Shown piece after piece: positions 450 to 33,628 of a stretch of DNA of 34,365 bases (position 1 is the stretch's first letter; each line of letters starts with the position of its first letter). This DNA comes from Gammaproteobacteria bacterium. Lineage in GTDB: Bacteria > Pseudomonadota > Gammaproteobacteria > Pseudomonadales > Azotimanducaceae. The notes under the pieces were generated by a model, which saw nothing but the letters and a program-made list of their open reading frames with translations, was not told where the DNA came from and ran no database searches. The stretch lies in contig PAFU01000028.1 of NCBI GenBank assembly GCA_002704225.1, positions 1,967 through 36,331 of the forward strand. The letters run 5' to 3'. The position numbers and the translations under genes are program-made.

Positions 450-1232
450 CTATCGGAACATATGGGTACCGCCACATACCGTCAGGGCTTGGCCTGTCAC
501 ATAGGCACTGGCATCTGAGGCAACGAATACCGCCATACCCTTAAAATCGTCCGCCTCACCAAAACGACGCAACGGGGTTTGTTCCGTCACACGCTGAGCG
601 GCTTCCGGGTTGTCCCACAGAGCTTTGGCAAAATCCGTACGGATCAAGCCCGGACACAGGGCATTCACACGCACACCTTGGGGGCCCCATTCCATGGCCA
701 GATTACGCACTAAGGCGATGTCCGCCATTTTGGAGATGTTGTATGTACCCAAGGTTTCCGACGGCCCAAAAGCACCAACGCTGGCGGTGATCATGATGGA
801 GCCGCGCTGCTTGGCCAGCATGTCGGGCGCCACCATCTGGCACAGCCAATGGTTAGAACGCAGGTTGGAATTCATGGTTTTATCAAAAGCCTCGTCAGGA
901 ATTTCTGACATCGGCCCATAAAAAGGATTCACGCCGGCATTGGCGATCAAGGTATCAATCGCGCCCAGGCGAGATCGCGTTTCATCGACCAAGCCTTGCA
1001 ATTGCTCCTTGTAGCCAATGTTGCAGGCGACAGCGATCGCCCGATCGGCGCCGACAGCGGCGTTAATCTCTGCGGCCGTTTCTTCACAGGCGTCCAGTTT
1101 GCGACTGGAAACCACAACCTGACTGCCATGCTCGGCCAGCGCCAGGGCCATGGCCTTGCCCATGCCCTTGGACGCGCCGGTCACTACGGCTATCTGGCCG
1201 CTCAAATCAAAAAGTTGTGTCGATACCGCCAT
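450..1232 (-). CDS. SDR-family oxidoreductase (classical short-chain dehydrogenase)
   Basis: 260 residues, the usual length of classical SDRs. It shows the cofactor motif TGASKGMG (residues 18-25), the NAG motif (98-100), and the catalytic triad Ser151, Tyr164, Lys168 (YNISK). Arg44 in the SSRK turn after the second strand suggests NADP preference, which is inference. It would oxidise or reduce a hydroxyl/keto group on a cytoplasmic substrate. The start is supported by AAGGGGAG upstream of the ATG. It lies 29 bases after the FMN alpha-hydroxy-acid dehydrogenase and 45 bases before the hot-dog gene, all leftward, so the three are probably co-transcribed. The substrate cannot be read from the sequence; a hydroxyacyl-CoA or cyclic alcohol would fit the surroundings. 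Confidence 0.92.
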   Translation of the reverse strand: MAVSTQLFDLSGQIAVVTGASKGMGKAMALALAEHGSQVVVSSRKLDACEETAAEINAAVGADRAIAVACNIGYKEQLQGLVDETRSRLGAIDTLIANAGVNPFYGPMSEIPDEAFDKTMNSNLRSNHWLCQMVAPDMLAKQRGSIMITASVGAFGPSETLGTYNISKMADIALVRNLAMEWGPQGVRVNALCPGLIRTDFAKALWDNPEAAQRVTEQTPLRRFGEADDFKGMAVFVASDASAYVTGQALTVCGGTHMFR

Positions 1233-1261
1233 TTTTCTCCCCTTATCAGCCGTCTAATCGG

Positions 1262-2416
1262 CTACGTGTGATTTGTTAGCCCCCCAGTGTAAAGCACATC
1301 GTCACGGACTTCGCCTAAGTCTGTCTTGCCACAGAACGCCATGGTCAAATCCAGTTCCTTCTCAATAATCTCCAAGCACTGAGTCACCCCGGCCTTGCCC
1401 CCTGCGCCCAGACCATTCAAAAATGCCTTGCCGATTAGGGTGGCATCCGCGCCTAGGGCCTTTGCTTTGAACACGTCTTGGCCCGAGCGAATACCGCCAT
1501 CCAGCCAGACCTCGCAGGCTCCATTCACCGCAGCAACGATCTCCGGCAGCACCTCGATACTGGCCGGCGCACCGTCCAACTGGCGACCGCCGTGATTGGA
1601 GACGATGATGGCATCAATGCCCAAGTTTGCTGCGATAACCGCGTCTTCCGCATCCATGATGCCCTTGAGAATCAGCTTGCCACCCCACTGCTCCTTGACC
1701 CATACCACATCATCCCAACTCAGCGATGGGTCCAGCTGCTCCGCCGACCATGCGGAAAGCGATGTCAGGTTTTCGACTCCCTTGGCATGCCCCACCACAT
1801 TGCCAAAGGAATGTCTCCGCGTGGTCAACATGCCAGCACACCAGCGGGGCTTGGTCGCCATATTGATGAGGTTGGCCAGGGTCAGCTTGGGCGGTGCGGT
1901 CATTTGATTTTTCAAATCTTTGTGGCGCTGACCAATAATTTGCAGATCCAGTGTCAGTACCAGAGCGCTGCAGCCAGCGTTTTTGGCGCGCTCGATCAAC
2001 GCCCGGATAAAATCACGATCCTTCATCACATACAGTTGGAACCAGAACGGTTTTTCCGTGTGCTCGGCAACATCCTCCAAGGAACAGATACTCATCGTCG
2101 ACAGGGTAAAAGGCACACCAAAGGCCTCCGCCGCTTGTGCCGCCAGAATTTCACCGTTGGCATGCTGCATACCTGTGAGTCCCGTAGGAGCTAAAGCTAC
2201 CGGTATCCGCTGGGATTCGCCCAGCATGGTCCCTGCAACGCTGCGCTGACTGATGTCCTTGGCCACCCGCTGACGCAGTCTGATCTCGGTAAACGCCTCT
2301 TCGTTGCGGCGAAACGTGCGCTCAGTCCAAGAGCCTGACTCTGCATAGTCATAAAACATTTTCGGCACGCGTCGCTGATGCAAGACACGCAAATCCTCAA
2401 TACAGGTAATGGTCAT
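1262..2416 (-). CDS. FMN-dependent alpha-hydroxy-acid oxidase/dehydrogenase (LldD/mandelate dehydrogenase family)
   Basis: 384 residues from the ATG at 2416, which has AGGGAG six bases upstream; a longer frame exists but lacks a ribosome site. The family active-site motif SNHGGRQ is at residues 273-279, with His275 as the base. Tyr23 (FYDY), Tyr129 (FQLY), Asp157/Arg164 (TLDLQIIGQR), Lys251 and the FMN phosphate loop DGGIRSG (306-312) are all present. The enzyme would oxidise an L-2-hydroxy acid to a 2-oxo acid on FMN, passing electrons to quinone, cytochrome or oxygen. Family members act on lactate, glycolate, mandelate or longer 2-hydroxy acids. It is first in a leftward operon and is transcribed divergently from the acyl-CoA dehydrogenase operon, so a catabolic role is more likely than simple lactate use. 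Confidence 0.9.
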   Translation of the reverse strand: MTITCIEDLRVLHQRRVPKMFYDYAESGSWTERTFRRNEEAFTEIRLRQRVAKDISQRSVAGTMLGESQRIPVALAPTGLTGMQHANGEILAAQAAEAFGVPFTLSTMSICSLEDVAEHTEKPFWFQLYVMKDRDFIRALIERAKNAGCSALVLTLDLQIIGQRHKDLKNQMTAPPKLTLANLINMATKPRWCAGMLTTRRHSFGNVVGHAKGVENLTSLSAWSAEQLDPSLSWDDVVWVKEQWGGKLILKGIMDAEDAVIAANLGIDAIIVSNHGGRQLDGAPASIEVLPEIVAAVNGACEVWLDGGIRSGQDVFKAKALGADATLIGKAFLNGLGAGGKAGVTQCLEIIEKELDLTMAFCGKTDLGEVRDDVLYTGGLTNHT

Positions 2417-2491
2417 CCTCGGCTCCCTATCACGCCACCACGCTCGAGATCTCATGGTAGCATCCGTTGATCATGCATTTGGGGAGGTTTC
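2417..2491. promoter_or_regulatory. Divergent intergenic region with overlapping palindromes
   Basis: This 75-base gap must hold the promoters of the leftward hydroxy-acid dehydrogenase operon and the rightward acyl-CoA dehydrogenase operon. It contains CTCGAG (2443-2448) overlapping the perfect 8-base palindrome GAGATCTC (2446-2453), and TGATCA and ATGCAT just before the rightward ribosome site. These could form an operator shared by both operons. No clear -35/-10 pair is visible and no known regulator site is recognised. Confidence 0.3.
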
Positions 2492-3661
2492 ATGGCGCTG
2501 GTTTTTACTGAAGATCAAGATCAATTCCGGGACAGCATTCAACGCTTTCTGTCCGACCAAATGCCCACCACCCGAGTCCGTCAGTTGATGGCAACGGAGC
2601 ACGCCTTCGATGACCAACTGTGGCAGCAAGCCAGCACCCAATTGGCACTCACCGGCATCCACGTACCCGAACACCTGGGCGGTGCAGGATTTGGTCCGGT
2701 CGAGCTTGGCATTGCCTTGGAAGAAATGGGTCGGGCATTGTTTTGCGGGCCGTATCTGAGCAGCGCCGTGTTGTCCGCTTACGCGCTGCTGATCTGCGCC
2801 GATGCGGATCAACAAGAACGCTGGTTAAGTGATGTGGCCAACGGTGGGCGGCGCTGCAGCCTTGCGGTCACTGAATCCACTGGACTGTGGCGAGACGACG
2901 ACATTCATACCACCGCCACCACCGATGAAGCTGGCAACAGTCTACTGAACGGTCGGAAGCGATTCGTGATTGACGCCAACAATGCCGACCTGCTCATTGT
3001 TGCCGCGCGTGCCAGCGACGGCATCGCTCTGTACATGATTGACGGTGAAACCAGCGGACTGACCCTTACCGCCCTAGACACCATGGACCCAACCCGCAAG
3101 ATGGCGGATATCGAGCTGAATAACGTCGTCGCGACACGGCTAAACCATGCGCCTGACCTACTACTCGACACCCTGCTGAACGTGGCCTGCATTGCTTTGG
3201 CCAACGAAATGATCGGAGGCTGCCAGCGCCTGCTTGATTCCGCCGTGGACTATACCCAGCTGCGCTATCAATTCGGGCGAAGCATCGCGTCGTTCCAAGC
3301 CATCAAACATCGGCTGGCCGACTTACTGTTGGACGTTGAGCTGAGTCGTAGCGCCGCCTATCAGGCAGCCCAAACCTTGGCGAGCTGCAGCGATCTGCGA
3401 ACCATCGACCAGGAAAAACACCGACGGCTAACCGAACACGCCAGCCTGGCAAAGGCCGCGGTCTGTGAAACCTATTTGCAAACGGCGCTGGAAACCATTC
3501 AGCTTCACGGCGGCATCGGCTTCACATGGGAAAACGATACCCACCTGTGGTTTAAGCGCGCCAAAAGCAGCGAAGTGCTGTTTGGCACACCGGCAGAACA
3601 TCGAGAACGCATGATGGTCGCCATCGAAACCGCCACAACCTCTCAGGAGAGTGCCGCATGA
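2492..3661 (+). CDS. Acyl-CoA dehydrogenase, probable non-catalytic partner subunit (FadE28-like)
   Basis: 389 residues with the acyl-CoA dehydrogenase layout: N-terminal helices (1-120), middle beta domain (about 121-225), C-terminal helices with QFGRSIASFQAIKH (260-273) and LHGGIGFTWE (338-347) for FAD contact. The catalytic glutamate appears absent from both known positions. The medium-chain enzyme site (Glu of YEGT) is Phe364 here, and the isovaleryl-CoA dehydrogenase site on helix G is Ala232. The stop overlaps the start of the next acyl-CoA dehydrogenase (ATGA), the usual arrangement of heteromeric pairs such as mycobacterial FadE28/FadE29. GGGGAGG precedes the ATG. I infer that it binds FAD and structure jointly with its partner rather than acting alone. 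Confidence 0.9.
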   Translation: MALVFTEDQDQFRDSIQRFLSDQMPTTRVRQLMATEHAFDDQLWQQASTQLALTGIHVPEHLGGAGFGPVELGIALEEMGRALFCGPYLSSAVLSAYALLICADADQQERWLSDVANGGRRCSLAVTESTGLWRDDDIHTTATTDEAGNSLLNGRKRFVIDANNADLLIVAARASDGIALYMIDGETSGLTLTALDTMDPTRKMADIELNNVVATRLNHAPDLLLDTLLNVACIALANEMIGGCQRLLDSAVDYTQLRYQFGRSIASFQAIKHRLADLLLDVELSRSAAYQAAQTLASCSDLRTIDQEKHRRLTEHASLAKAAVCETYLQTALETIQLHGGIGFTWENDTHLWFKRAKSSEVLFGTPAEHRERMMVAIETATTSQESAA

Positions 3662-4920
3662 GCCAAGCGACAACACTGCATGCCGAAGTAACCCAATGGC
3701 TGAGCGAGCATTGGGACCCGAACATGGATCTGCTGACCTGGCGCTCCTTGGTTGCCGACTCTGGATGGGGAGCTCCCAGTTGGCCCAGTGACTACTATGG
3801 CAAAGACATGAGTCCGCTGGACGCCGGTGTCGTTGAGCAGGCCTTTGCGGATCATGGTGCCGTCGGCGCAGCGCAAAGCGGCGTGCGCATGCTGGCGGCG
3901 GTTACTCTGCTCGCCCACGGATCTCACGAACAAAAGCAAAAGTACCTACGCGGCATTCTCACTGGCGAGGACCAGTGGTGTCAGCTCTTCAGCGAACCCG
4001 GCAGCGGCTCGGATCTTGCCGGCGCCACAACCCGTGCCGACTTACGCGGAGACGAATGGATCATCAATGGCCAAAAGGTCTGGAATACCAGCGCCCACCA
4101 CGCTCAGTACGGCCTGCTGTTGGCCCGTACAGACTGGGACGCGCCCAAGCACCAAGGCCTGAGCTACTTTGTGATTGATATGGAGCAACCCGGCGTGGAA
4201 GTACGCCAGCTGGCGCAAATGAACGGTCACGCCTCGTTCAACGAAGTCTTTATGACTGATGCGGTGGTCAATCGCGATGATCTGGTGGGCGAAGCGGGCG
4301 GCGGCTGGAAATGCGCCATGACTACCTTGGCAAATGAACGCCGGTCCTTTGATCGGGCCCGGGACGTCGGTGCTCGCAAAGGCCGTCAGGGGAAAATTTT
4401 TGCGGATCTTGAAGAAGAATTTGCTATCGCTAACGAACCTTATACGTGGTACCCCCAACGCGCCGGTCGCGTGGATTTGATCCTGCAGCGAGCGATGGAA
4501 ACCGGTGCCATCAACGATCCGGCACAGCGTCAGGACATTGCCCGCCTGCACATCATGGCGGAGTCCGCCAAGTGGACGGGCGAGCGTGCAAAGGCTGCGG
4601 CGAAGGCAGGTAAGCCTCAAGGACCGGAGGGTTCCTTGGGCAAGCTCGCCGCCAGCAACGTCGCTCGTCTTGCCGCCCGAGTACATACCGCCATCTGCGG
4701 CAACGATGCGCTTCTGACCGGCCCCAACAGTCCCATGGGCGGCGTTATCGCTGAAATTCTGGTCTCCACTCCAGCCATTTCCATCGCTGGTGGCACCGAT
4801 GAGATTCAAAAGAACATCATCGCGGAACGGGTCATGGGCCTGCCCAAGGAACCGCGCGTTGACGACGGCCCATTCCGGGATGTTCGACGCAACACCAGTG
4901 GCACCACGACAAAGAGCTAA
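3658..4920 (+). CDS. Acyl-CoA dehydrogenase, probable catalytic subunit (FadE29-like)
   Basis: 420 residues, somewhat long for the family. The FAD-site segment FSEPGSGSDLAG is at 111-122 and the FAD/interface motif GGTDEIQ lies near the C-terminus. Where medium-chain enzymes carry the catalytic Glu (YEGT) this protein has AGGT, but Glu227 in LANERRSF falls at the helix-G position used by isovaleryl-CoA dehydrogenase, as in FadE29. The reaction would be FAD-linked alpha,beta-desaturation of an acyl-CoA, with electrons passed to ETF. It overlaps the upstream partner by four bases (ATGA), so translation is probably coupled. Six bases separate it from the CoA-transferase. In known heteromeric pairs the substrate is often a bulky, ring-attached or branched acyl-CoA, which fits this cluster. 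Confidence 0.93.
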   Translation: MSQATTLHAEVTQWLSEHWDPNMDLLTWRSLVADSGWGAPSWPSDYYGKDMSPLDAGVVEQAFADHGAVGAAQSGVRMLAAVTLLAHGSHEQKQKYLRGILTGEDQWCQLFSEPGSGSDLAGATTRADLRGDEWIINGQKVWNTSAHHAQYGLLLARTDWDAPKHQGLSYFVIDMEQPGVEVRQLAQMNGHASFNEVFMTDAVVNRDDLVGEAGGGWKCAMTTLANERRSFDRARDVGARKGRQGKIFADLEEEFAIANEPYTWYPQRAGRVDLILQRAMETGAINDPAQRQDIARLHIMAESAKWTGERAKAAAKAGKPQGPEGSLGKLAASNVARLAARVHTAICGNDALLTGPNSPMGGVIAEILVSTPAISIAGGTDEIQKNIIAERVMGLPKEPRVDDGPFRDVRRNTSGTTTKS

Positions 4921-4926
4921 CAATCT

Positions 4927-6132
4927 ATGGACAACAAACCCCTACACGGCATTCGCGTTATTGAGGTAGGCCAACTGCTCGCCGGCCCGTTTGCGGGCAC
5001 GCTTCTGGCGTATTTCGGTGCCGACGTCATCAAGGTTGAACCCCCCGGCGACGGCGACCCCATCCGAGGCTGGAGACTGCTCGACAAAGACGGCACCAGC
5101 TTTTGGTGGCGGAGTCTGGGACGGAACAAAAAATCACTGACCTTGAACCTGCGCACCACCGAAGGTCGCGACGTATTGGGCAAACTGTTGGGTGATGCCG
5201 ACGTACTGATCGAAAACTTCAAACCCGGCACCATGGAAAAATGGGGACTGGGACCGGAAGACGTCAAACAGCAGAATCCCGGACTGATCTACACGCGAAT
5301 TTCGGGCTACGGACAAACCGGGCCCTACAGCAGCAAGCCCGGCTACGCGTCGGTAACCGAAGCCTATTCTGGCTTCCGCTACATCAACGGTTTTGACGGA
5401 GAGGTTCCTGTACGGCCCAATCTGAGCTTGGGTGATAGTGTCGCAGGACTGCACGCCGCCATGGGCATATTGCTCGCATTGCTCGCACGCAAATCAAGCG
5501 AATCCGAAACAACCGGCCAGGTGGTTGATGTCGCCCTGTACGAATCCATGTTCAATCTGATGGAAGGCATCGTGCCCGAGTATTCCGGTGCCGGTGACGT
5601 GCGCCAGCCTGCAGGCTCGACCATCACCGGTATCGTGCCTACAAATACCTACCTGTGCGCTGATGCAAAACATGTGGTGATTGGCGGCAACGGCGACTCC
5701 ATTTACGTGCGACTCATGACCGCCATCGGCCGCGAAGATCTAGCCAATGACCCCCGTCTGGCAGGCAACCCCGGTCGAGTCACCCATCAGAAACTCATCG
5801 ACGGTGCCATTGCGGCGTGGGCAGACAAGCTCACCAGCGCTGAGGTCATCCAAATCATGGAGGATGCCGATGTGCCCGTAGGTGCCATTTTCAGTATCGC
5901 CGATGCCTTCGATGATCCGCACTATCAAGCCAGAGGCCTGTTCGAGCACGTCGCAGTACCGAACCAAGACCAACCACTGGCGATTCCTGCTATTTTGCCC
6001 AAGCTCACCGGGACACCAGGCAGCACAGAGTGGCCGGGCGGCGAGGTAGGCAGCCATACGGATGAACTGCTGCAAGGCCTCGGGTTAGACGCCGAACGTA
6101 TTGCCTATCTGAAGGAACATGGCATCGTATGA
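4927..6132 (+). CDS. Class III CoA-transferase (CaiB/BaiF family)
   Basis: 401 residues, typical for the family. The N-terminus (IRVIEVGQLLAGPFAGTLL, then GADVIKVEPP) is the CoA-binding Rossmann-type half. The catalytic aspartate that forms the acyl-enzyme anhydride is Asp170 in SLGDSVAGLH. The TGQVVDVALYE segment and the C-terminal EHGIV end are also typical. It would move CoA from a donor such as succinyl-CoA or acetyl-CoA to a free carboxylic acid. There is no strong ribosome site before the ATG; six bases from the previous stop suggests coupled translation. It is the third gene of the seven-gene operon and probably activates the acid that the acyl-CoA dehydrogenase pair then oxidises. Confidence 0.93.
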   Translation: MDNKPLHGIRVIEVGQLLAGPFAGTLLAYFGADVIKVEPPGDGDPIRGWRLLDKDGTSFWWRSLGRNKKSLTLNLRTTEGRDVLGKLLGDADVLIENFKPGTMEKWGLGPEDVKQQNPGLIYTRISGYGQTGPYSSKPGYASVTEAYSGFRYINGFDGEVPVRPNLSLGDSVAGLHAAMGILLALLARKSSESETTGQVVDVALYESMFNLMEGIVPEYSGAGDVRQPAGSTITGIVPTNTYLCADAKHVVIGGNGDSIYVRLMTAIGREDLANDPRLAGNPGRVTHQKLIDGAIAAWADKLTSAEVIQIMEDADVPVGAIFSIADAFDDPHYQARGLFEHVAVPNQDQPLAIPAILPKLTGTPGSTEWPGGEVGSHTDELLQGLGLDAERIAYLKEHGIV

Positions 6133-6151
6133 ACGACTTGAGGGGAACACC

Positions 6152-6991
6152 ATGAGTGAGAATTTGAATACCGGAACCGATGAGCTGTTGTGCAACATTG
6201 ACCAGCGTGTGGCCACGATCACCTTGAACCGCCCAGAGAAACGTAACGCCCTTTCTGACAATCTCACACCCGCGCTGCGCCAAACACTGTTGGCGCTGGA
6301 AACCCGAAACGATGTGGGCTGCATTGTCATCACCGGTGCCGGATCCGCTTTTTGCGCCGGTGGCGATGTGGGCGGCATGAGCGACAACAATGCACAAGCA
6401 GCCAATACGCCACGAACTGAACGACCCACAATGGACAATAAGGTGCGGGCCCTGATTCATAAACAGGAAACGCTCACCCTACGACTGTTTGATCATGCAA
6501 AACCCACCATCGCCGCACTACCCGGCGTGGCTGCCGGAGCAGGCATGTGTATTGCGTTAGCCTGCGACATCCGCATCGCGGCGGCGTCGAGCTTCGTTAC
6601 CACGGCCTATCGCAACATCGGCTTTTCCGGTGACTATGGCGGCAGTTGGCTACTCAATCAGTTGGTTGGGCCGGCCAAAACCAAGGAGTTGTATTTCACG
6701 GGGCGAAGAGTCCAAGCAGACGAAGCCTTAGCCTTAGGCATCTTCAATCAAGTGGTGGATGACGAGCGCTTTCCGGCAGCGGTTACCGAGCTGGCAAGAC
6801 AGATTGCCTCGGGCCCGCCCATCGCCTTGGGTTTTATGAAACGGAACATCAACAGCGCCATTGAAGGCACACTACGAGACAACTTGGCCCGCGAAGCCGA
6901 TACCTTAATGCGCTGTGCGGCCACCGAAGATCACAAAGAAGCCGTCGCGGCATTTATGGCGAAACGCGCGCCGGAATTTCAGGGCCGCTAA
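6152..6991 (+). CDS. Enoyl-CoA hydratase/isomerase (PaaG-like crotonase)
   Basis: 279 residues from the ATG at 6152, chosen because GAGGGG sits six bases upstream; an in-frame ATG 33 bases earlier overlaps the previous gene. Crotonase oxyanion-hole segments are CAGGD (68-72) and GVAAGAG (125-131). The two glutamates of classical crotonase do not appear at their usual places. Asp161 in GDYGGSWLL matches the acid of PaaG-type enzymes (consensus GxxPDxGG), so isomerase or ring-modified hydratase activity is more likely than plain crotonase. The product of the acyl-CoA dehydrogenase pair is the likely substrate. It is 19 bases from the genes on either side. Confidence 0.9.
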   Translation: MSENLNTGTDELLCNIDQRVATITLNRPEKRNALSDNLTPALRQTLLALETRNDVGCIVITGAGSAFCAGGDVGGMSDNNAQAANTPRTERPTMDNKVRALIHKQETLTLRLFDHAKPTIAALPGVAAGAGMCIALACDIRIAAASSFVTTAYRNIGFSGDYGGSWLLNQLVGPAKTKELYFTGRRVQADEALALGIFNQVVDDERFPAAVTELARQIASGPPIALGFMKRNINSAIEGTLRDNLAREADTLMRCAATEDHKEAVAAFMAKRAPEFQGR

Positions 6992-7010
6992 CCAACAGAG
7001 CGAGATACCT

Positions 7011-8183
7011 ATGGCCAATTGGCAAAACTGGTCCGGACGCCTGTCCAGCAAACCGGAGCAACTGAGTTTCATCTATTCTGAGGCACAGGCGGCCGCACTG
7101 GCCAAGGCCAGTACACAGGCAGGCAAGTCACTCCGCGCAGTCGGTGCCGGTCATTCCCACAAAGAACTTGTTGTCGATGGCGACATCATTGCCGACCTGC
7201 AAGCCTTGTCCGGCGTTCTGTCCGTGGATACGGATCTGGGCACCGCATGGGTTGGCGGCGGCTCTAAGATCCATACCTTGGGCCCTGCCCTGCACCGCCA
7301 CGGTCTGGCGTTGGCGAACCAAGGGGATATCGACCAGCAAAGTATCAGCGGTGCGACAGCCACCGGCACCCACGGCACCGGCGCAACCCTGCAGAACCTC
7401 AGTAGCCGGGTGTCCGGCGCGCGCATCGCACTTGCCACTGGTGAGGTGGTGGAATGTTCGGCTCAGCAGAACAGCGAACTGTGGCAGGCAAGCCGCCTGC
7501 ATCTGGGTGCATTTGGGCTAATCACGGCACTGCAGCTGGATTGCGTGCCGTCCTATCGGCTGCAAGAACGCAGCTGGACACTGCCCCTGGGTGATCTGTT
7601 GGCCGACCTCGACGATCTCATAGCCAACAATCGCCACTGCGAATTTTTCTGGTATCCCCAAACCGACAGCGCCAATCTGAAAGTGATCAACCCCACCGAC
7701 GCACCAGCACAGTACCCGCTGGGCGGAGAGGGTGAACGCTGCGCTTGGAATTTTGAGGTACTGCCGAACCATCGCCCGCACCTGCACACGGAAATGGAAT
7801 ACAGCGTACCGGCGGATCAAGGCCCCGCCTGTATGCAGGCCATTCAGTCGCTGTTAAACAACACATTTACCGACGTGCGTTGGCCGGTGGAATATCGAAC
7901 CCTCGCTGCAGACGATGTGTGGCTTTCGACAGCCTACCAGCGGGATACCGTCACCATTTCCGTTCATCAGGACGTGAATTTACCGGATGCCGATTACTAC
8001 CGTGCATGCGAAGAAATCTTCCTAGACTTTGACGGCAGGCCGCATTGGGGTAAGGCGAACTTTCTCAGTGGCGACCAACTGGCCAAACAGCACCACAAGT
8101 GGGCTGACTGGTGGCGGGTAAGAGACAGCGTCGATCCTGAGGAAACCTTTCTCAATCCGTACATGAAAGCCATTCGACCTTAG
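7011..8183 (+). CDS. FAD-dependent oxidase of the aldonolactone oxidase family (D-arabinono-1,4-lactone/L-gulonolactone oxidase-like)
   Basis: 390 residues from the ATG at 7011, just after the hydratase stop; a longer in-frame extension overlaps that gene and is rejected. The N-terminal FAD domain has GAGHSH (45-50), where His48 corresponds to the histidine that covalently binds flavin in aldonolactone/alditol oxidases, then QGDIDQQSISGATATGTHGTG around 104-124. The C-terminal family signature GRPHWGK ends at residue 348 (HWGK 345-348). Known members oxidise sugar lactones, alditols or similar alcohols. Here the gene lies inside an acyl-CoA operon, so the real substrate may be a cyclic alcohol or lactone from the degraded compound; that is inference. 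Confidence 0.88.
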   Translation: MANWQNWSGRLSSKPEQLSFIYSEAQAAALAKASTQAGKSLRAVGAGHSHKELVVDGDIIADLQALSGVLSVDTDLGTAWVGGGSKIHTLGPALHRHGLALANQGDIDQQSISGATATGTHGTGATLQNLSSRVSGARIALATGEVVECSAQQNSELWQASRLHLGAFGLITALQLDCVPSYRLQERSWTLPLGDLLADLDDLIANNRHCEFFWYPQTDSANLKVINPTDAPAQYPLGGEGERCAWNFEVLPNHRPHLHTEMEYSVPADQGPACMQAIQSLLNNTFTDVRWPVEYRTLAADDVWLSTAYQRDTVTISVHQDVNLPDADYYRACEEIFLDFDGRPHWGKANFLSGDQLAKQHHKWADWWRVRDSVDPEETFLNPYMKAIRP

Positions 8184-8191
8184 GGAACCCC

Positions 8192-9274: not shown

Positions 9275-9281
9275 TGAGCGG

Positions 9282-9926: not shown

Positions 9927-9928
9927 AG

Positions 9929-9958
9929 TTGTTTGACTCCAAATATTGGTTCTATGAT
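9929..9958 (+). promoter_or_regulatory. Possible sigma-70 promoter for the epoxide hydrolase operon
   Basis: TTGTTT (9929-9934) and TATGAT (9953-9958) are separated by 18 bases, in the 63-base divergent gap and 31 bases before the GTG start at 9990. CCAA-ATA-TTGG, a short inverted repeat, lies inside the spacer and could be an operator half. The -35 box is imperfect and the assignment is by eye only. Confidence 0.35.
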
Positions 9959-9989
9959 TCGGGATCGCAGTTTTCAGGAAACAGCCTAG

Positions 9990-13334: not shown

Positions 13335-13364
13335 TCGAAACCCATGAAACCAGTGCCAAACTGG

Positions 13365-14471: not shown

Positions 14472-14575
14472 GGGCCCTCCCTCTCATGGTTAGCATGTGG
14501 CGTACAGTCTAGCCTCATCGCTGTCTTTCTGGCAGATTGCTTGGAGTGATCCAATTCAATCAGCGAGAGAGTCCT

Positions 14576-15076
14576 ATGCGTCGAGCAATTTTATCCGTCA
14601 TCACCCTCATTACTGCCATGACCTTCGCCGGCACAGCAGTGGGCGGCCATCATTTAGCGTCTGAGCAGCCAGTGGTCAGCAACCTGACATGGATGACGGG
14701 CAGTTGGGCCGGCGACATCGGCGGCCCAACTCTGGAAGAAAACTGGACCGAGGCCAAGGCCGGCAGCATCGCCTCCTTAGTGCGTATTACGTCTCCACAG
14801 GGCACTGCCATGGTGGAAATCGTCAACATTCAAGAAATGGACGACACCTTGGTACTGCACATTCAACAGTGGGACCCTGGCTTTGTGGCTCGGGCCGACG
14901 CCCAGAAGATGGTGCTGGAAAGCATTGGACACCAAAGCGTGAGCTTTACCGCCGCCAGCCCCGGTGGTCTCAAGAAACTGGGATACAGCCTGACGGAAGC
15001 AGGCCAATTTCTGGTTCAGGTCACCACCGCAGAGGATCAAGAAATGACCCTGCCCCTGAGCGCCATGCAGCGTTAA
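14576..15076 (+). CDS. Secreted DUF6265-like protein
   Basis: 166 residues from the ATG at 14576 with GAGAG upstream. The N-terminus MRRAILSVITLITAMTFAGTAVG is a Sec signal peptide (about residues 1-23), so the mature protein is periplasmic. The mature part starts with LTWMTGSWAGDIGGPTLEENW, the pattern of DUF6265-type beta-barrel proteins (L-x-W-M-x-G-x-W, then a conserved E-x-W). Further on, GLKKLGYSLTEAG matches the family's late strand. No function is established. It precedes the phosphotriesterase-family gene by 27 bases and is probably co-transcribed; the small, lipocalin-like barrel may bind a hydrophobic ligand. Confidence 0.8.
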   Translation: MRRAILSVITLITAMTFAGTAVGGHHLASEQPVVSNLTWMTGSWAGDIGGPTLEENWTEAKAGSIASLVRITSPQGTAMVEIVNIQEMDDTLVLHIQQWDPGFVARADAQKMVLESIGHQSVSFTAASPGGLKKLGYSLTEAGQFLVQVTTAEDQEMTLPLSAMQR

Positions 15077-15103
15077 ACCCTCAATTCAGGCCGGAGAGTA
15101 ACC

Positions 15104-16054
15104 ATGGCTACCATCAACAGCGTACTGGGTGAGATCGACAGCAAAGACTTGGGTTTCACTCTGATGCACGAGCATGTCATGGTCGCCGCCAGTGGGTTGT
15201 CGATCCACTATCCTGACTTGCTGGGGCCGAATCGAGAGCAGCGGGCCATTGAGTGCCTGAAAACCGCCAAGGCTCATGGCATCGACACCATGCTCGATGC
15301 CACCACCTTCGACTTGGGGCGCGATCCAGCGCTGCTCAAAACCGTAGCCGAGGCGTCGGGCGTAAACTTGATCAACGTCACTGGCTGGTGGCTGGATGTA
15401 CCCCGCTTTATGCAAGGCGTCGGCGCCAATCAAATGGCCGATGAATTCATCAAAGATCTCACCGAAGGCTTTCGCGGCACCAACATCAAGGCCGGCATGC
15501 TCAAGTGTGCGGCGGATTTCGAAGGCGTAACACCGCCGCTGGAAACCATGGCCCGGGCGGTGGCACGCGCCCACCTGCAGACCGGCGTGCCGATCATGGT
15601 GCACTCCTACCCTACCGGCCAGGTGGCTCGACGGCAGATCGCCATCTTCAAAGAGGAAGGAGTGGATTTGGGTAAGGTTAAAATCGATCACAGCAATGAC
15701 ACCACTGACACCGAATATTTGACGTGGATTTTGGACCAAGGCTGTTTTCTCGGACTGGACCGATACCCCGGGCGCTTGGTGAGCCCCCATATGCGAACCG
15801 TGACCCTGAAGCGCCTAATGGACATGGGTTATGGCGAACGACTGTGCCCGTCCCATGACTGCATCTGTCTGCACATTCATAACGAGCAGCCTGATGGCAG
15901 CATTGCCGAGCAGCACGACTTTCACAAGAGCAATCCGGATCAGTACCTGTTTATGCATCGGCATGTGATCCCTCAGCTGCACCAGCTTGGGGCCACGGAC
16001 CGGGACATTGAAATGCTCTTCGTGGATAACCCTCGACGACTGTTTGAGGCCTGA
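15104..16054 (+). CDS. Phosphotriesterase-family metal hydrolase (lactonase-like)
   Basis: 316 residues, the usual length of PTE/PLL amidohydrolases. The binuclear metal ligands are readable: His22 and His24 (MHEH), Lys134 as candidate carbamylated lysine (AGMLK), His167 (MVHS), His196 (IDHS) and Asp252 (SHD). GGAGAG precedes the ATG. Natural substrates of most family members are lactones, not organophosphates. With a luciferase-type flavin enzyme and a sugar-lactone-oxidase-like protein in the same island, hydrolysis of a cyclic ester formed from the degraded compound is a reasonable inference. No signal peptide, so it is cytoplasmic, unlike the secreted DUF6265 partner just upstream. Confidence 0.9.
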   Translation: MATINSVLGEIDSKDLGFTLMHEHVMVAASGLSIHYPDLLGPNREQRAIECLKTAKAHGIDTMLDATTFDLGRDPALLKTVAEASGVNLINVTGWWLDVPRFMQGVGANQMADEFIKDLTEGFRGTNIKAGMLKCAADFEGVTPPLETMARAVARAHLQTGVPIMVHSYPTGQVARRQIAIFKEEGVDLGKVKIDHSNDTTDTEYLTWILDQGCFLGLDRYPGRLVSPHMRTVTLKRLMDMGYGERLCPSHDCICLHIHNEQPDGSIAEQHDFHKSNPDQYLFMHRHVIPQLHQLGATDRDIEMLFVDNPRRLFEA

Positions 16055-16059
16055 GTACG

Positions 16060-16077
16060 GCCCGGACTAGACCGGGC
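16060..16077. terminator. Possible bidirectional hairpin between convergent genes
   Basis: GCCCGG and CCGGGC form a 6-base stem with a six-base loop. It lies across the stop codon of the leftward TauD gene and just after the stop of the rightward phosphotriesterase gene. Neither side has a clear T-run, so Rho-independent termination is uncertain. Confidence 0.35.
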
Positions 16078-16945
16078 GATCACCAATCACCGTTACCCGC
16101 TCCATCTTTCGCACCGCAGGATAGTAGTCTGCCGCCGCATAGTGCTGGGCTCCTCGGTTGTCCCAAAACGCGAGCGAATCAGCGCGCCACCGAAAGCGAC
16201 ATTGAAAATCTGGGATACTGGCCTGCTGGTAAAGCTGGGCCAGCAGCAGGTCGGATGCCTGTGAATCCATACCCTCGATGTAACGGGTAAAGGCGCTGTT
16301 TACGTAAAGCGACTTGCGCCCGCTGACCGGATGGGTCCTGACAACAGGATGGCGCATGGGCGGATACTCCCGGCGTTTTGCCTCAATAGCCTCTTCCGAT
16401 GCTCCTTGATTGCGCATACCTTCCAAAAATGGCGTGTTGTCATGCACCGCCACCAATCCGTCCAAACGCGTTCGGGTGTCCTTCGGCAGCGCGTCGTAGG
16501 CAGCTTCCATGTTGGCAAACAAGGTATCGCCACCCACCTCAGGGACCTCACGCGCACGCAGCACCGAGCCCAGCGAGGGAAATTCTCGCCAAGTCACATC
16601 GCTGTGCCAAATGTTTATGGTGGGCGGCCGGTCCGGTCCGTTATCCAAGTGAATAAGCTCCGGGTAGGCATCGTTATTGGACGCAAAGGGATGCACTTCC
16701 AGCTCGCCAAAACGCCTAGCGAACCCGATGTGCTGCTCAGCAGTCAGCGACTGATCACGGAAGAAAATGACCTTGCGCTCTACCAGCAAAGCCTGCAAAA
16801 ACTCAACCACCTCATCACTGAGCGATTGGGCCAGATCAATACCCAGCACTTCTGTACCAATCACGGGACTGAGATGATGTAACTCAAACCCCTGTCGTCT
16901 TTCATTTTCGAGAGCCTGACTCTCAACATGGTGCGCACCCAGCAT
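16067..16945 (-). CDS. TauD/TfdA-family Fe(II)/2-oxoglutarate dioxygenase
   Basis: 292 residues. The iron-binding triad is His114, Asp116 (WHSDVTW) and His268 (NRGAQHY). Thr141 and Arg279 fall at the 2-oxoglutarate contacts of TauD. The GTEVLGIDLAQSLSDEV start of the core fold is typical. Family members hydroxylate taurine, alkyl sulfates, 2,4-D and other acids, using oxygen and 2-oxoglutarate. AAGGAGA precedes the ATG. It is the last gene of a leftward three-gene operon with the NUDT19-like Nudix hydrolase and a PhyH dioxygenase; the pairing with PhyH suggests two hydroxylation steps on one route. No taurine or sulfonate transport genes are present, so a taurine role is unlikely. Confidence 0.92.
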   Translation of the reverse strand: MLGAHHVESQALENERRQGFELHHLSPVIGTEVLGIDLAQSLSDEVVEFLQALLVERKVIFFRDQSLTAEQHIGFARRFGELEVHPFASNNDAYPELIHLDNGPDRPPTINIWHSDVTWREFPSLGSVLRAREVPEVGGDTLFANMEAAYDALPKDTRTRLDGLVAVHDNTPFLEGMRNQGASEEAIEAKRREYPPMRHPVVRTHPVSGRKSLYVNSAFTRYIEGMDSQASDLLLAQLYQQASIPDFQCRFRWRADSLAFWDNRGAQHYAAADYYPAVRKMERVTVIGDRPV

Positions 16946-16974
16946 CTCTTCTCCTTACAACGTCAGCAAACGTT

Positions 16975-17745
16975 TCAGTAACGCTCGACCGTGTTCTCAA
17001 ACACGAAGCCACCCTGCGGCATGGCCAAACGGTGGCGCGCCCCCTCGATGTCCGGGTTCCACTCGTCGTATCCGGCATCACCCTTCCACATGGCCACACG
17101 CTCGCCGGAGGCTGCAGGCACCACTCGAGTGTTGTAGGTGATGCCGGTGTTTTGGCCGAAATGCTCTATTACCGCGTCTGCTGACGCTTTCAGCGATAGG
17201 TGATACAGGGTCACCCATGTCGGTGGCACCAGATCGATTTCACCCTCGCCATGTTTACGCAGTGCTTCCGCGGGATTTAGCCAAGCATGGTCCTTGATTT
17301 CGCCATCATCAATTGCCACGTCCATGGCACCCTGTACCTTGGCGACAAAAAACCAGGTAGCAAAACGCTTCTGTTGACCGGGAGGCGGTGTCCAATGAGA
17401 CAAGAACACGTAGTCCTCAGACGCCACGGTAATTCCGGCTTCTTCTTCTGTCTCTCGCACCGCAGCCGCACGTGCGGCAGATTCGATGTTGTTCGCATCG
17501 ACCTCACCACCGGGGTAATCGGCAGCATCAATTTTGCCGCCGGGGAATACCCACATGCCGCCAAAAGTGATTTTTGAGTTTTTACGCAGCATCAGCACTT
17601 CCACACCGGAAACGCCATCGCGCAGCAGGACAACCGTCGCGGCAGGTATCAGCGCAGAGACATTGGGATCATCCTCGCTACGCGATTCAATGTTGCCGTA
17701 CATATCGTTGCGGTGTTGCGTTGCATTATCTGTGGTCTCGGTCAT
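16975..17745 (-). CDS. Nudix hydrolase, NUDT19-like (possible acyl-CoA diphosphatase)
   Basis: 256 residues. The Nudix core is present as FPGG (67-70) and RETEEEAGI (97-105), but the space between them is longer than the canonical GX5EX7REUXEEXGU box because of an insertion (about residues 71-90, DAADYPGGEVDANN). This split box is characteristic of NUDT19/RP2p, mammalian CoA and acyl-CoA diphosphatases. The early segment VEVLMLRKNSKITFGGMW also fits. The reaction would cleave CoA esters to 3',5'-ADP and acyl-phosphopantetheine. It sits between two dioxygenase genes in a leftward operon, 38 bases after PhyH. Its job might be removal of dead-end CoA thioesters; that is inference. Confidence 0.88.
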   Translation of the reverse strand: MTETTDNATQHRNDMYGNIESRSEDDPNVSALIPAATVVLLRDGVSGVEVLMLRKNSKITFGGMWVFPGGKIDAADYPGGEVDANNIESAARAAAVRETEEEAGITVASEDYVFLSHWTPPPGQQKRFATWFFVAKVQGAMDVAIDDGEIKDHAWLNPAEALRKHGEGEIDLVPPTWVTLYHLSLKASADAVIEHFGQNTGITYNTRVVPAASGERVAMWKGDAGYDEWNPDIEGARHRLAMPQGGFVFENTVERY

Positions 17746-17783
17746 GTACTACTCCGTTCGTTTGCTTTTCTCGTGGTCAACGG

Positions 17784-18689
17784 CTATCCGGCACGCTGCA
17801 AGGCTGGGGACCAGTCCTCCCACATGTTTGCGGTCACCGGCTTGGTGCGCAGGGTATCCAAATCATTGGTCCAGAAGTCAGCCAATACCGCCTGTCGAAT
17901 CTGTTCGCTGTAATTTTGGCCCGCCGCGTGGGCCAGACGATGATGCCAAAATACGATATCCCCAGCTTGGCCGTAACATTCTACCGGCTCTACCTCATCA
18001 ATGATGCGACTCAGTTCCGCCTTGTACGCCTCGCTGTGGCTAATACCCTTAAACGCGGGCAGGTGAGGGTAGTAGGGAACTCTCGGCTGGTCGTAGCGTA
18101 GGGCGAAAGTAGGAAACAAACGGGTATGGGAACCCGGCCATACCTTGAACGCACCGCCATCCGCAGGACAATCGTCCAGCAAACCCACGATGCCTAGCTG
18201 AAAAGGGTGGCCGTCCGTATGGCAGCCATCCGCCTCACGAGCCTTGTTGCCGTAGGGCAAGGTACAGTACACGCCGCGGGCACCCTCGTTGCCCAGCGCG
18301 GGATCCGTGGGCCCACCGGGCCATGCCGGACCGTGACTTCCCATGGGCGACCCATCAACCACCGCCTGCCGTAACCGCCCTCCCAGTAATTGCTGAGCCA
18401 TCTGACAAATGAATTCCGAATAAATCAGTCGAATGACATCAGCGTTCACCCCAAGAAATCGGTTCAGCCATCGATAGTCCGCGCGCATATGCCGCTCATC
18501 AGAACTTTCGTCCTGTTCACTGAACGGTCCAACAAAACTCGCCGGATCATTTGGTTGCAGTCGAGTATTCGGCGGCAGCGCCTGCCACATCAGGTCTCTG
18601 ACTCGTCGACAAAGCGCGGTATCCATGGCACCCGGGACGATCAAATAGCCCTGAGTTTTGAAAAAACGGATTTGTTCCGCATTAAGCAT
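17784..18689 (-). CDS. Phytanoyl-CoA dioxygenase (PhyH) family protein
   Basis: 301 residues with the non-haem iron triad His157, Asp159 (CHTDG) and His254 (RLAHAAG), and Arg265 eleven residues later for 2-oxoglutarate. The start FFKTQGYLIVPGAMD is the standard PhyH opening. Family members hydroxylate phytanoyl-CoA, ectoine and many secondary metabolites. GGGGAGG precedes the ATG at 18689. It is the first gene of the leftward operon and is transcribed divergently from the 806-residue fused CoA-transferase with a 103-base gap, so the two may share control. Alpha-hydroxylation of a branched acyl-CoA or acid is the simplest guess; other hydroxylations are possible. Confidence 0.9.
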   Translation of the reverse strand: MLNAEQIRFFKTQGYLIVPGAMDTALCRRVRDLMWQALPPNTRLQPNDPASFVGPFSEQDESSDERHMRADYRWLNRFLGVNADVIRLIYSEFICQMAQQLLGGRLRQAVVDGSPMGSHGPAWPGGPTDPALGNEGARGVYCTLPYGNKAREADGCHTDGHPFQLGIVGLLDDCPADGGAFKVWPGSHTRLFPTFALRYDQPRVPYYPHLPAFKGISHSEAYKAELSRIIDEVEPVECYGQAGDIVFWHHRLAHAAGQNYSEQIRQAVLADFWTNDLDTLRTKPVTANMWEDWSPALQRAG

Positions 18690-18792
18690 TGTCGCCTCCC
18701 CGAGCGCTGCATTGCATCAACATAGCATTCTGAACTTTCTCTGACCATTTCGCTGGGCTATTGTCTTTGGCGGAGAGGAATAAGGAACTTTC

Positions 18793-21213
18793 ATGGCGTT
18801 AGCAGACATACGCGTTATCGATTTAACCGATGAACGTGGCATTTATGGCACCAAACTACTGGCCGACCTCGGGGCGCAAGTCATCCGCCCAGAGAGCGCG
18901 ACGGGCGATCCACTACGCCAACGCGGGCCCTTTTTGCAGTCCAAGACTGGCGCCATATCACTTTGGCACAGCTTCTTCGCATCCAATCGAACCTTTGTCC
19001 AGGTCGACAGCGCAGACCCAGCGGCAAGGCAAACCCTGCAAAGGCTGGCCGAAGCCGCTGATATTATTTGCCGATGTGATCAAAGCGATTCAGCAGCACT
19101 CGTGGACATTGAGGCCGCCAAGCGCGCCAACCCCGGCTTAGTCGTTGTAGAACTGTCATCCTTCGGCAAGGAGGGGCCATGGTCAGATTACCTAGCGCCC
19201 GACATCGTTGCCGGTGCATTGGGCGGCGCGGCTGCCACAACCGGCGACGCGAACACACCGCCGCTGAAGAACTTTGGTGATCTGAATTTTATGATTTCAG
19301 GTGCCTATGCGGCCATCGCCGCACTCAGCGCTCTATACCACCAACGCAACACAGGCCAAGGTCAGAGCACACACCTATCTGTCCACGAGAGCATCGCATC
19401 GTGTCTGGAACAGGTCTTCATGTTCTACTTTTATCAGCAAACCCTGAACCGCCCAGAAGGTCGAGTACTGCCCCGCCGCGGCGCCCTGCACTGGTCAGAT
19501 GCCTATGGGGTTATGCCGGGCAAGAACGGTTGCATCATGGCAACACCGGCGCCGAATTTTGACAATCAGTTGATGTGGTGGATCGAAGAGGACGTGCACG
19601 AAGATCTGATCGATCCCAAATACATGGAGCCGGAGAATCTGCGACTGCGAACCCAGCGCGCCATGGACATCATGAGTCGCTGGGTCGCTACCAAGGACGT
19701 GGAAGCACTGTTTCACGAGGCCCAGTCGCGGCACGCGCCCTACGGCTGGGTTCTGCCCATCGAAAAAGTGGCCGAAAACCCGCAGCTGCAGGCGCGGGAT
19801 TGGTATGTGCCGTATCAGATTGACGACGTGAACATTACCTCCCCGGGGACGCCCTATCATTTCAGCAAGACACCTTGGCAGCTCAAGCCATACCAATCTC
19901 AGGCAATCCCCATCAGCGCCGTCGCTGACCAGCTACGCTGGCAAACGCGCACACATCAGGCCGAGAACGCGCCAGGCAGCAAACCGCTGGCTGGCATCAA
20001 GGTGTTGGACTTCACTCACGTGCTGGCTGGACCCTTCGCCACACGCATGCTTGCCGACATGGGTGCTGACGTCATCAAGATCAATTCCAGCGAACGCGCA
20101 GTGACAACCCAAGACCCCCACCACCCCTATTACTTGATGTGGAATCGCAACAAACGCGCCTTAGCGTTAAAAATGTCGGACGACTCGGCCAAGGCGCTCG
20201 CAAGGCGGCTCGCCGACGAAGCAGACATCGTGATCGACAACTTTTCGGTAGGCGTACTGGATCGCTGGGGCATTGGTTATAACGAGGTGAGCCAAACCAA
20301 TCCCGGTGTGATTTACGTACAGATGTCTGGCATGGGGGACGGCGGCCCGTGGTCAAAATACGTCACCTACGCTCCCACCATTCATGCCTTATGCGGTATC
20401 ACGGCGACTACCGGTGTGCCCGGCCGCGAGGACATTGGTATCGGCTTTTCCTATAACGACCATCAGGCCGGTCTGCACGGGGCCGTTGCGGTCTTGGCAG
20501 CGCTGCAAGCCCGGCGCACAACCGGCAGCGGTCAGCGTGTGGACATTTCACAATTCGAGGTAGGCATTAACTTCATCGGACCCTCCTTACTCGATCTGGC
20601 GGCGAACGGTACAAAGGCTCGTCCTGTGGGTAACGACCTGCCCTACGATGCGGTAGCGCCACACGGTTGCTACCGATGCGCCGATCAGACTAAGGAAACC
20701 GGCGCCGACGAAGCAACGGCTCGCCAAGTCAGTGAACGCTGGATCGCCATTGCTTGTATGAACGAATCCCAGTGGCAGGCGCTTTACCAACTCATGGGGC
20801 AACCGGATTGGGCGGCGCAGGATATCTTTGCCACCCAGGCAGCCCGCTATGAGCATCGTGAGTTGTTGAACGAACACCTCTCGGCATGGACTCGTAACGC
20901 CGATGCCCTCACGCTTATGCAGCAATGTCAGCAGGCCGGTGTGCCCGCAGGGGTCGTGCAAGACGGTGCCGACCTCGTGGAACATGACCCTCAGTTGCGT
21001 CAGCGAGGCTTCCTGCAACCCATGGACGATGTACACCCGACTTTGGGACCCACATGGATCGACCGGCTGGTCATTCAGTTCGACACCACCCCCTGCGACG
21101 ACTATCAGCGCACCCGGGCGGTTGGCGAAGACAGCGCCGCCATTTTAAAAGATTGGCTTGGCATGGACGAGGCCACCCTAGCCGAACTCAATAACGCCGG
21201 TGTGTTGAGCTAG
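18793..21213 (+). CDS. Double-domain class III CoA-transferase fusion (inactive N half, active C half)
   Basis: 806 residues, twice the family length. Two complete CaiB/BaiF modules are visible. The N-terminal module covers about 1-385, with ADIRVIDLTDERGIYGTKLL near the start and NTGQGQ at 186-191. The C-terminal module covers about 397-806, with GIKVLDFTHVLAGPFATRML at 401-420. In the C module the catalytic aspartate is Asp556 (YNDHQAGLHG). In the N module the aligned site is Phe166 (NFMISG), although an Asp163 three residues earlier leaves an alternative alignment possible. The arrangement is a covalent version of heteromeric CoA-transferases with one active subunit. AGGAA lies upstream of the ATG. 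It is single-gene and divergent from the PhyH operon. Confidence 0.92.
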   Translation: MALADIRVIDLTDERGIYGTKLLADLGAQVIRPESATGDPLRQRGPFLQSKTGAISLWHSFFASNRTFVQVDSADPAARQTLQRLAEAADIICRCDQSDSAALVDIEAAKRANPGLVVVELSSFGKEGPWSDYLAPDIVAGALGGAAATTGDANTPPLKNFGDLNFMISGAYAAIAALSALYHQRNTGQGQSTHLSVHESIASCLEQVFMFYFYQQTLNRPEGRVLPRRGALHWSDAYGVMPGKNGCIMATPAPNFDNQLMWWIEEDVHEDLIDPKYMEPENLRLRTQRAMDIMSRWVATKDVEALFHEAQSRHAPYGWVLPIEKVAENPQLQARDWYVPYQIDDVNITSPGTPYHFSKTPWQLKPYQSQAIPISAVADQLRWQTRTHQAENAPGSKPLAGIKVLDFTHVLAGPFATRMLADMGADVIKINSSERAVTTQDPHHPYYLMWNRNKRALALKMSDDSAKALARRLADEADIVIDNFSVGVLDRWGIGYNEVSQTNPGVIYVQMSGMGDGGPWSKYVTYAPTIHALCGITATTGVPGREDIGIGFSYNDHQAGLHGAVAVLAALQARRTTGSGQRVDISQFEVGINFIGPSLLDLAANGTKARPVGNDLPYDAVAPHGCYRCADQTKETGADEATARQVSERWIAIACMNESQWQALYQLMGQPDWAAQDIFATQAARYEHRELLNEHLSAWTRNADALTLMQQCQQAGVPAGVVQDGADLVEHDPQLRQRGFLQPMDDVHPTLGPTWIDRLVIQFDTTPCDDYQRTRAVGEDSAAILKDWLGMDEATLAELNNAGVLS

Positions 21214-31130: not shown

Positions 31131-31173
31131 GGGGTTGCAGTCTCCATAGCAGGTTTGGCCGTCTTGACCCCAA

Positions 31174-33567: not shown

Positions 33568-33628
33568 ACATTGACCAATGTCTCCCAGCAGCCCTGAGAG
33601 ACCCAACCTATTCGCACACGGAGTTGAT

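Follow-up and report, generated by a model that had tools for sequence, protein, structure and literature searches.

The closest described counterpart of the locus analyzed here is a two-enzyme cascade of Sterolibacterium denitrificans, in which a 25-hydroxysteroid kinase (25-HSK) and a 25-phosphosteroid lyase (25-PSL) bring about the ATP-dependent dehydration of 25-hydroxysteroids (PMC8449060, PMC11061730). In the sections of these papers available here, the first describes the kinase and leaves the lyase unidentified, and the second terms the lyase putative; a literature search by the name of the lyase returned no paper beyond these two. The DNA examined in this study is a 34,365-nucleotide stretch (the window) from a marine gammaproteobacterium of the family Azotimanducaceae, corresponding to positions 1967–36331 of contig C9 (PAFU01000028.1) in genome G000 (GCA_002704225.1; 2.91 Mb in 63 contigs). 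Its positions 450–21213 hold a gene island that encodes CoA-transferases, redox enzymes, hydrolases and a homologue of 25-PSL (13365–14471). The catabolism of the cholesterol side chain and rings in actinobacteria, with ChsE, IpdE, Ltp and alpha-methylacyl-CoA racemase (AMACR), offers a further comparison, as does the mycobacterial Rv3168–Rv3169 locus, presumably an APH-type kinase gene beside an Rv3169-family gene, a pair for which we know of no established function.

We propose, at a probability of about 0.4, that the island, as the portion inside the window, belongs to a larger conserved locus for the catabolism of an alpha-methyl-branched, hydroxylated, isoprenoid-type compound, either a terpenoid or a sterol side chain. 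Such a substrate is favored because it best fits the lyase homologue, an AMACR-like protein, the relatives of one acyl-CoA dehydrogenase subunit (ACAD2) and the sulfatases of the locus. The most informative gene of the island is that of the lyase homologue, which was missed in the initial annotation, a reading of the sequence alone that suggested an undescribed catabolic island for a cyclic terpenoid-, steroid- or lactone-like compound. A literature search for such a gene cluster found none.

Conservation was followed through the FAD-linked alditol/aldonolactone oxidase-type gene (ALO; gene names as in Table 1). A search of 58 genomes gave strong matches in 26 of the 36 other genomes of the genus, at 54–95% identity (two of them partial), and a best identity of 40% in the remaining members of the order. 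The 26 loci, one per genome and with a gene scored only where its position is in reach, have two forms: form A (18 loci), which resembles the window, and form B (8 loci). One 5.1 kb stretch (L106) was assigned to form A on the sole ground that four form-B marker genes are all missing from it, and the SDR gene is unscored because all 26 stretches stop before its full length; earlier locus listings contain duplicates, several of L031–L045 together with L066 repeating L088–L101. In form A most of the genes are nearly always present, as with CaiB1 (15/15), ECH (16/17), LLM (15/18), HAD (15/17), EH (13/16), the Rv3169-family gene (13/14), DUF6265 (12/12), PTE (12/12), NUDIX (10/12), PhyH (10/12), CaiBfus (9/12), ACAD1 (11/12) and ACAD2 (12/13); the variable genes are FMNdh (4/12), CaiB2 and CaiB3 (6/15 each) and TauD (0/12). 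At the TauD position, a relative of an MFS_2 transporter is encoded in 10 of 12 such loci in reach; it has 69–100% identity to the protein of L039, the only one on which the Pfam MFS_2 assignment was made, and TauD itself was observed outside the window only in L032. The earlier statement that no regulator or transporter gene is visible in the island thus stands for the ORFs scanned in 450–21213, where neither was matched, but as to transporters it does not carry over to these relatives.

Form B retains CaiB1 (7/7), LLM (7/8), FMNdh (5/6), HAD (4/7) and EH (4/6), with few copies of ACAD1 (2/6), ACAD2 (2/7) and the Rv3169-family gene (1/6), although in one form-B genome (G025) a lyase orthologue is present outside the stretch counted. 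The form also has extras of its own, in sets that vary (CMD, DUF3089, Amidohydro_2, another MFS_2, LEH and a VOC-type gene), and the core shared by the two forms is SDR, CaiB1, ALO, LLM and mostly EH. It counts against our reading that form B has no ECH (0/7) and, in the stretches seen, no PTE, NUDIX, PhyH or CaiBfus (0/6 each), that its ACAD pair is often absent, and that CaiB, SDR and EH are very broad families. With so small a core, and with CaiB2/CaiB3, TauD, FMNdh and MFS_2 coming and going among relatives, the region could be a genus-level hot spot in which unrelated catabolic genes gather between QueF/AGCS and ELM1/LptG, there being no single pathway. We regard this as improbable: almost every form-A locus in reach keeps most of the form-A genes together, and the reading frames of ACAD1/ACAD2 and of CaiB1/ECH overlap. 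Moreover, because CaiB1, PTE, the Rv3169-family gene and ECH are near-universal in form A and because dN/dS against relatives points to purifying selection (0.015–0.122 for the 17 island genes with a computable value; CaiBfus, with saturated dS, has none), the association is more than one of chance.

These observations support a conserved, undescribed catabolic CoA/redox island within the genus. The initial annotation held that neighbors not conserved in other genomes would speak against its candidate island; within the genus they are kept, while outside it only ALO homologues were found, in different gene contexts. A search for LLM in 368 other genomes sampled from the class found none at E 1e-60, and a viral scan with ALO gave zero matches. 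Two Acidimicrobiaceae/Acidimicrobiales assemblies (L064 and L065) carry ALO homologues of 46–51% identity, again in a different gene context.

The product of 13365–14471 exceeds the curated cut-off of the Rv3169-family model NF053593; a search of 398 Pseudomonadota genomes gave members over this cut-off in 20, G000 included. Its PDB sequence relatives, with E values up to 1 admitted, are 9fzn (E 7.6e-52), 9g2i and 9g4c only, all of them 25-PSL. The AlphaFold2 model of the protein (mean pLDDT 89.4) matches the 25-PSL entries with TM scores of 0.81–0.85 (0.82/0.84 for 9g4c_B) at about 30% identity, and the next fold matches are AttH, pericyclases and kievitone hydratase. Entry 9g4c contains bound phosphate and desmost-1,4-diene-3-one, and the Asp within GSRDRSWG of 9fzn is Asn in 9g4c; the window protein reads GTRDRSWG (the aligned stretch ends at residue 326). 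All 83 family ORFs collected, a set in which many rows duplicate loci, keep that Asp, 63 of them within RDRSWG and the other 20 within variants of it, and Asp173 of the window protein is among the invariant columns of a 25-row alignment (A1). From its likeness to 25-PSL, we propose that the protein is a phospho-alcohol lyase.

The island extends leftward past position 450, beyond the end drawn in the initial annotation. Contig C9 starts 1966 bases before the window, and the right end of contig C61 matches C9:417–1989 with 98.98% identity over 1573 bases. C61 encodes orthologues of QueF, AGCS, an alkyl sulfatase, a carboxylesterase, a kinase, a sulfatase, LarC, a CaiB-family protein, MaoCa, MaoCb and MaoC3, in the gene order of the relative G003, with two extra ORFs and without the aldo/keto reductase of G003. 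MaoCa matches PF13452; that MaoCb and MaoC3 are MaoC-like is our own reading, as Pfam backs MaoCa alone. The MaoC3-orthologue ORF at the left edge of the window is broken by a short N run near the contig start, and neither it nor its orthologue in the relative has a Pfam match. The CaiB-family protein of C61 bears HDINY and NLVGDFGGG, which we take to be marks of AMACR, and no NCBIfam model names it as such. The first 416 bases of C9 have no match on C61, and the CaiB gene at the joint differs, being AMACR-like at C61:15430–16566 and a fragment of another CaiB at C9:1–416; this mismatch is perhaps strain variation in the assembly. The LarC gene, for a nickel-pincer cofactor, adjoins the island in both genomes (G000:C61:14227–15447 and L147:12890–15145), and in relatives it sits beside an aldo/keto reductase gene.

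The C61 kinase (G000:C61:10450–11541) matches APH (PF01636, 40.9 bits, over the cut-off) and has the H-x-D-x4-N motif in the form HVDYRLDN; its G003 orthologue (L147:9193–10272) matches both EcKL (PF02958, 55.7 bits) and APH (49.8 bits). The kinase model has the choline kinase/APH fold, the same superfamily as 25-HSK (9fsg). Genome-level orthologues were called by identity (at least 52% for the kinase and at least 59% for the lyase), with partial matches counted as present (the kinases of G004 and G020, a 59-residue lyase fragment in G010 and a lyase in two pieces in G023). On this basis 23 of the 37 genomes of the genus, G000 included, have both genes, six have the kinase only, two the lyase only and six neither (Fisher test, 0.0077). 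For the 15 genomes in which both flanks can be judged, those with contigs ending too early being omitted and G026 and G000 being read from two contigs (overlapping in G000), the counts are 11 with both, three with neither and one with the kinase only (Fisher test, 0.0088). The G002 contig breaks off on the left, and the best kinase match of that genome is on another contig. More distant copies of the two genes are direct neighbors in G018 and G027. In G035 a kinase gene and a lyase-family gene are separated by 1.1 kb that includes an LLM gene, and in G005 by 2.6 kb. Outside the genus, eight of the 19 lyase-family loci (L172, L173, L176, L180, L182, L185, L186 and L187) have an APH/EcKL gene, called with profiles grown from five kinases of G000, in their 1.5 kb flanks, and H-x-D-x4-N is present in all eight. 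As controls, no kinase was near any of 30 ALO loci or two cofD loci (Fisher test, 1.2e-4), and the density of APH matches in G000 gives a rough expectation of about 0.015 kinase per locus. Stretches L154, L165–L167, L202–L207 and L210–L212 (in part) are outside every count.

Several points weigh against a functional pairing of the two genes. First, 25-HSK is at rank 36 among the structural matches of the kinase (TM 0.51), below choline kinases and other APH-type entries, and is absent from its PDB sequence hits; it is thus not the closest relative. Second, the kinase and lyase genes of G000 are far apart, on two contigs whose overlap is all that joins them. Third, G026, G013 and G033 have the kinase without a lyase orthologue, and G028 and G031 have the lyase without the kinase. 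Fourth, 11 of the 19 loci outside the genus have no kinase in the flanks seen, as is the case for all but one (L132) of 25 mostly same-genus loci (L114–L138), and six further loci, from families elsewhere in the order (G039, G044 and G053), include two with a kinase no more than 6 kb away, one of these a weak match. Finally, the proximity controls are weak because 27 of the 30 ALO loci are the same island, and the Fisher values overstate the evidence because the genomes are related. A literature search on bacterial EcKL proteins with sterols gave none related among the matches listed. It is therefore only tentatively, and as a rather doubtful generalization, that we suggest that Rv3169-family proteins are phospho-alcohol lyases paired with EcKL/APH-type kinases, that ATP-dependent dehydration is widespread for isoprenoid alcohols, and that in this marine genus it is part of an F420-using island whose LLM enzyme could reduce the alkene.

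The locus resembles the S. denitrificans cascade in the fold of its lyase, the conserved Asp, and the presence of a kinase of the same superfamily, and differs from it in the lyase, at about 30% identity, in the EcKL subtype of the kinase and in the absence of KshA from G000. Some of the kinase and lyase genes are neighbors in the genomes surveyed here, whereas the available sections of PMC8449060 report no lyase candidate near 25-HSK.

The two overlapping acyl-CoA dehydrogenase genes, ACAD1 and ACAD2, encode a probable pair. The best PDB matches of ACAD2 are Tcur3483 and 4x28, presumably steroid enzymes. With the AMACR-like racemase and other genes for CoA-based beta-oxidation, this pair recalls actinobacterial cholesterol catabolism, from which the island differs in that the IpdE2 and PimC/PimD models all fall under their cut-offs for island ORFs, that KshA is negative, and that HsaD is negative in a weak test. 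KshA (PF19298) is absent from G000 and was found in 3 of 24 other genomes of the genus, two of them weakly. HsaD exceeds the 400-bit cut-off in none of 38 genomes, a cut-off that also excludes the best matches outside the genus, the score of the best match in the order being 282 bits. Both results speak against our reading as far as sterols are concerned, that for HsaD only weakly; with KshA absent, sterol-ring degradation by the known aerobic route is unsupported, and complete sterol degradation was dropped as a candidate.

A narrower possibility is the degradation of a sterol or bile-alcohol side chain proper, in which the isoprenoid side chain (of a sulfated sterol, for example) would be removed and the nucleus released or passed on. 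The 25-PSL homologue, the AMACR-like protein and the relatives of ACAD2 are consistent with it, as are the sulfatases and SCP2-containing alkyl sulfatase that flank the G003 locus on its left and have orthologues on C61, the P450 genes in the left flanks of the form-B loci G018 (also by Pfam), G025 and G026, and a thiolase, SCP-x-like by our reading, in L036 and L092. Given the KshA and HsaD results and the fact that no thiolase gene was matched in the island of the window, we consider it unlikely. G000 has eight P450 matches, and among the matches listed none is on C9 or C61. The terpenoid or steroid part of the initial annotation thus survives weakly, as an isoprenoid type indicated by the lyase homologue, the AMACR-like motif and the ACAD2 matches, and not as known aerobic ring degradation. 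Terpenoid routes of the Atu or Liu type were dropped, as no carboxylase match was obtained among the island ORFs scanned.

The four CaiB genes of the island contain five modules. In the column that we take to hold the catalytic Asp of class III CoA-transferases, Asp is present in CaiB1 (26/26), CaiB3 (13/13), the C module of CaiBfus (8/8) and the C61 protein (16/16), and it is replaced by Gln in CaiB2 (9/9) and by Phe in the N module of CaiBfus (11/11). With Asp in three of five modules, the island would have three active sites, of which two belong to pairs of unlike modules, and CaiB2 and CaiB3 are probably partners. The CaiB2/CaiB3 and CaiBfus pairs are not close copies, with 24–29% identity. 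The best PDB matches of CaiBfus are to chain B (C module) and chain A (N module) of 9fn0, a benzylsuccinate CoA-transferase which we take to be a pair of Asp-less and Asp-bearing modules, as in CaiB2/CaiB3 and CaiBfus; the island differs from that system in that the CaiBfus N module has a closer relative than CaiB2 and that it showed no benzylsuccinate genes. The literature matches listed included no paper on the 9fn0 structure. Cleavage of dimethylsulfoniopropionate of the DddD type was dropped as a role for CaiBfus on the grounds of its best PDB match, no direct comparison with DddD having been made.

Among the redox enzymes, ALO matches alditol and galactonolactone enzymes (E 1.9e-38 to the xylitol oxidase 2vfr), and the PDB relatives of FMNdh are lactate oxidase and mandelate dehydrogenase. 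The catalytic motifs of EH were read from its sequence with what we take to be their definitions. The PTE family includes lactonases, although the score of the island protein to the PhFuoseLconase model (61 bits) is under the cut-off. If ALO and PTE carried out lactone chemistry, the substrate could be a non-isoprenoid oxygenated compound, such as a sugar-like lactone, a polyketide or a xenobiotic ester, and the Amidohydro_2, DUF3089 and CMD genes of form B would be in keeping with this. Such family names leave the substrate unfixed, the 25-PSL homologue and the AMACR-like gene fit an isoprenoid better, and we assign this alternative a low likelihood. The lactone part of the initial annotation derives solely from the family names of ALO and PTE.

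LLM had been noted as a flavin enzyme. Its family assignment holds, and it is better read as probably F420-dependent, because of its score to TIGR03857, its best PDB relatives, which are F420-dependent reductases, and the F420 operon of the host. This operon (L151:6100–12001, on G000:C41) has NpdG, CofE, CofD, CofC and CofGH in one stretch, all over their cut-offs except CofD, which is just under (253.7 bits versus 257.45); a CofD match is present in 21 of 24 genomes of the genus, G000 included.

In the catabolism of an isoprenoid-type compound that we prefer, the substrate would possibly be taken up as a sulfate or ester, and the sulfatases and esterase may deconjugate it. Oxidation could be carried out by ALO, the 2-hydroxy-acid dehydrogenase, the SDR enzyme and the dioxygenases; CaiB-type transferases would load CoA; and beta-oxidation would use the AMACR-like racemase, the paired ACAD, the MaoC-like hydratases and the ECH isomerase. 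An alcohol group may be phosphorylated by the EcKL-type kinase, the Rv3169-family protein would then expel phosphate to leave an alkene, and the alkene could pass to the putatively F420-dependent LLM enzyme, or be epoxidized and then opened by the epoxide hydrolase.

The genes of the island are listed in Table 1. Pfam and NCBIfam searches recovered every gene named in the initial annotation at about the place given there, including the four CoA-transferase genes with five modules, with the NUDT19-like Nudix enzyme recovered at the level of the Nudix domain. Three genes, those for the HAD phosphatase, the Rv3169-family protein and the DUF6265 protein, were added. The start of ALO is probably 7011 and not 6915, because the alignment of many homologues begins only near residue 33.

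Table 1. Genes of the island, in window coordinates, with the basis of each assignment.
Gene product	Coordinates	Strand	Basis and remarks
MaoC3 orthologue	3–404	-	63–65% identity to L147:17319–18134; "MaoC-like" is our reading
SDR oxidoreductase	450–1232	-	PF13561, 203 bits; present in forms A and B
FMN-dependent 2-hydroxy-acid dehydrogenase (FMNdh)	1262–2455	-	PF01070, 448 bits
ACAD1, acyl-CoA dehydrogenase subunit	2492–3661	+	Pfam; IpdE2 model 181 bits, under cut-off 450
ACAD2, acyl-CoA dehydrogenase subunit	3658–4920	+	PimC model 183 bits, under cut-off
CaiB1, class III CoA-transferase	4927–6132	+	PF02515, 381 bits; Asp170 in catalytic column
ECH, enoyl-CoA hydratase/isomerase, PaaG-like	6119–6991	+	Profile matches
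ALO, FAD-linked alditol/aldonolactone oxidase-type	7011–8183 (start revised)	+	TIGR01679, 347 bits, cut-off 292
LLM oxidoreductase, F420-dependent TIGR03857 family	8192–9274	+	315.3 bits, cut-off 218.4
HAD-family phosphatase	9282–9926	-	PF13419, 85 bits
Alpha/beta epoxide hydrolase (EH), EphA-like	9990–10967	+	PDB 5cw2, E 4e-72
CaiB2, class III CoA-transferase-like subunit	10964–12112	+	Gln replaces catalytic Asp
CaiB3, class III CoA-transferase	12096–13334	+	Catalytic-column Asp kept
Rv3169-family protein, 25-phosphosteroid lyase homologue	13365–14471	-	NF053593, 371.6 bits, cut-off 150
DUF6265 protein	14537–15076	+	PF19780, 64 bits
Phosphotriesterase-family hydrolase (PTE)	15104–16054	+	PF02126, 222 bits; PDB 4if2, E 8.7e-61
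TauD-family dioxygenase	16067–16945	-	PF02668, 238 bits
Nudix hydrolase (NUDIX)	16975–17745	-	PF00293, 58 bits
PhyH-family dioxygenase	17784–18689	-	PF05721, 54 bits
CaiBfus, fused two-module CoA-transferase, 806 aa	18793–21213	+	N module Phe, C module Asp

Base composition is even, with GC of 0.54–0.60 throughout, and tRNA and Rfam scans gave zero matches; recent acquisition of the island was dropped on these grounds. To the right of the island lie ELM1, M50, Cys/Met PLP enzyme and LptF/LptG-type genes. This right-hand side also has another CaiB gene, CaiB5 (29973–31250), and the CaiB family has 29 matching stretches in G000. A TonB-dependent receptor gene lies about 12 kb to the right of the island (L072:5545–7782; window position 33578 onward).

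If the proposal is true, it would give a testable function to the uncharacterised family NF053593, which by its name is also present in mycobacteria, and would show that dehydration by phosphorylation and elimination reaches beyond a single anaerobic sterol degrader and into marine bacteria. It would likewise indicate a carbon source used by the K189A clade, an ocean lineage that has been little studied, and would supply a physiological reason for F420 in Proteobacteria, a matter listed as an unanswered question in the available part of a 2021 review (PMC8498797).

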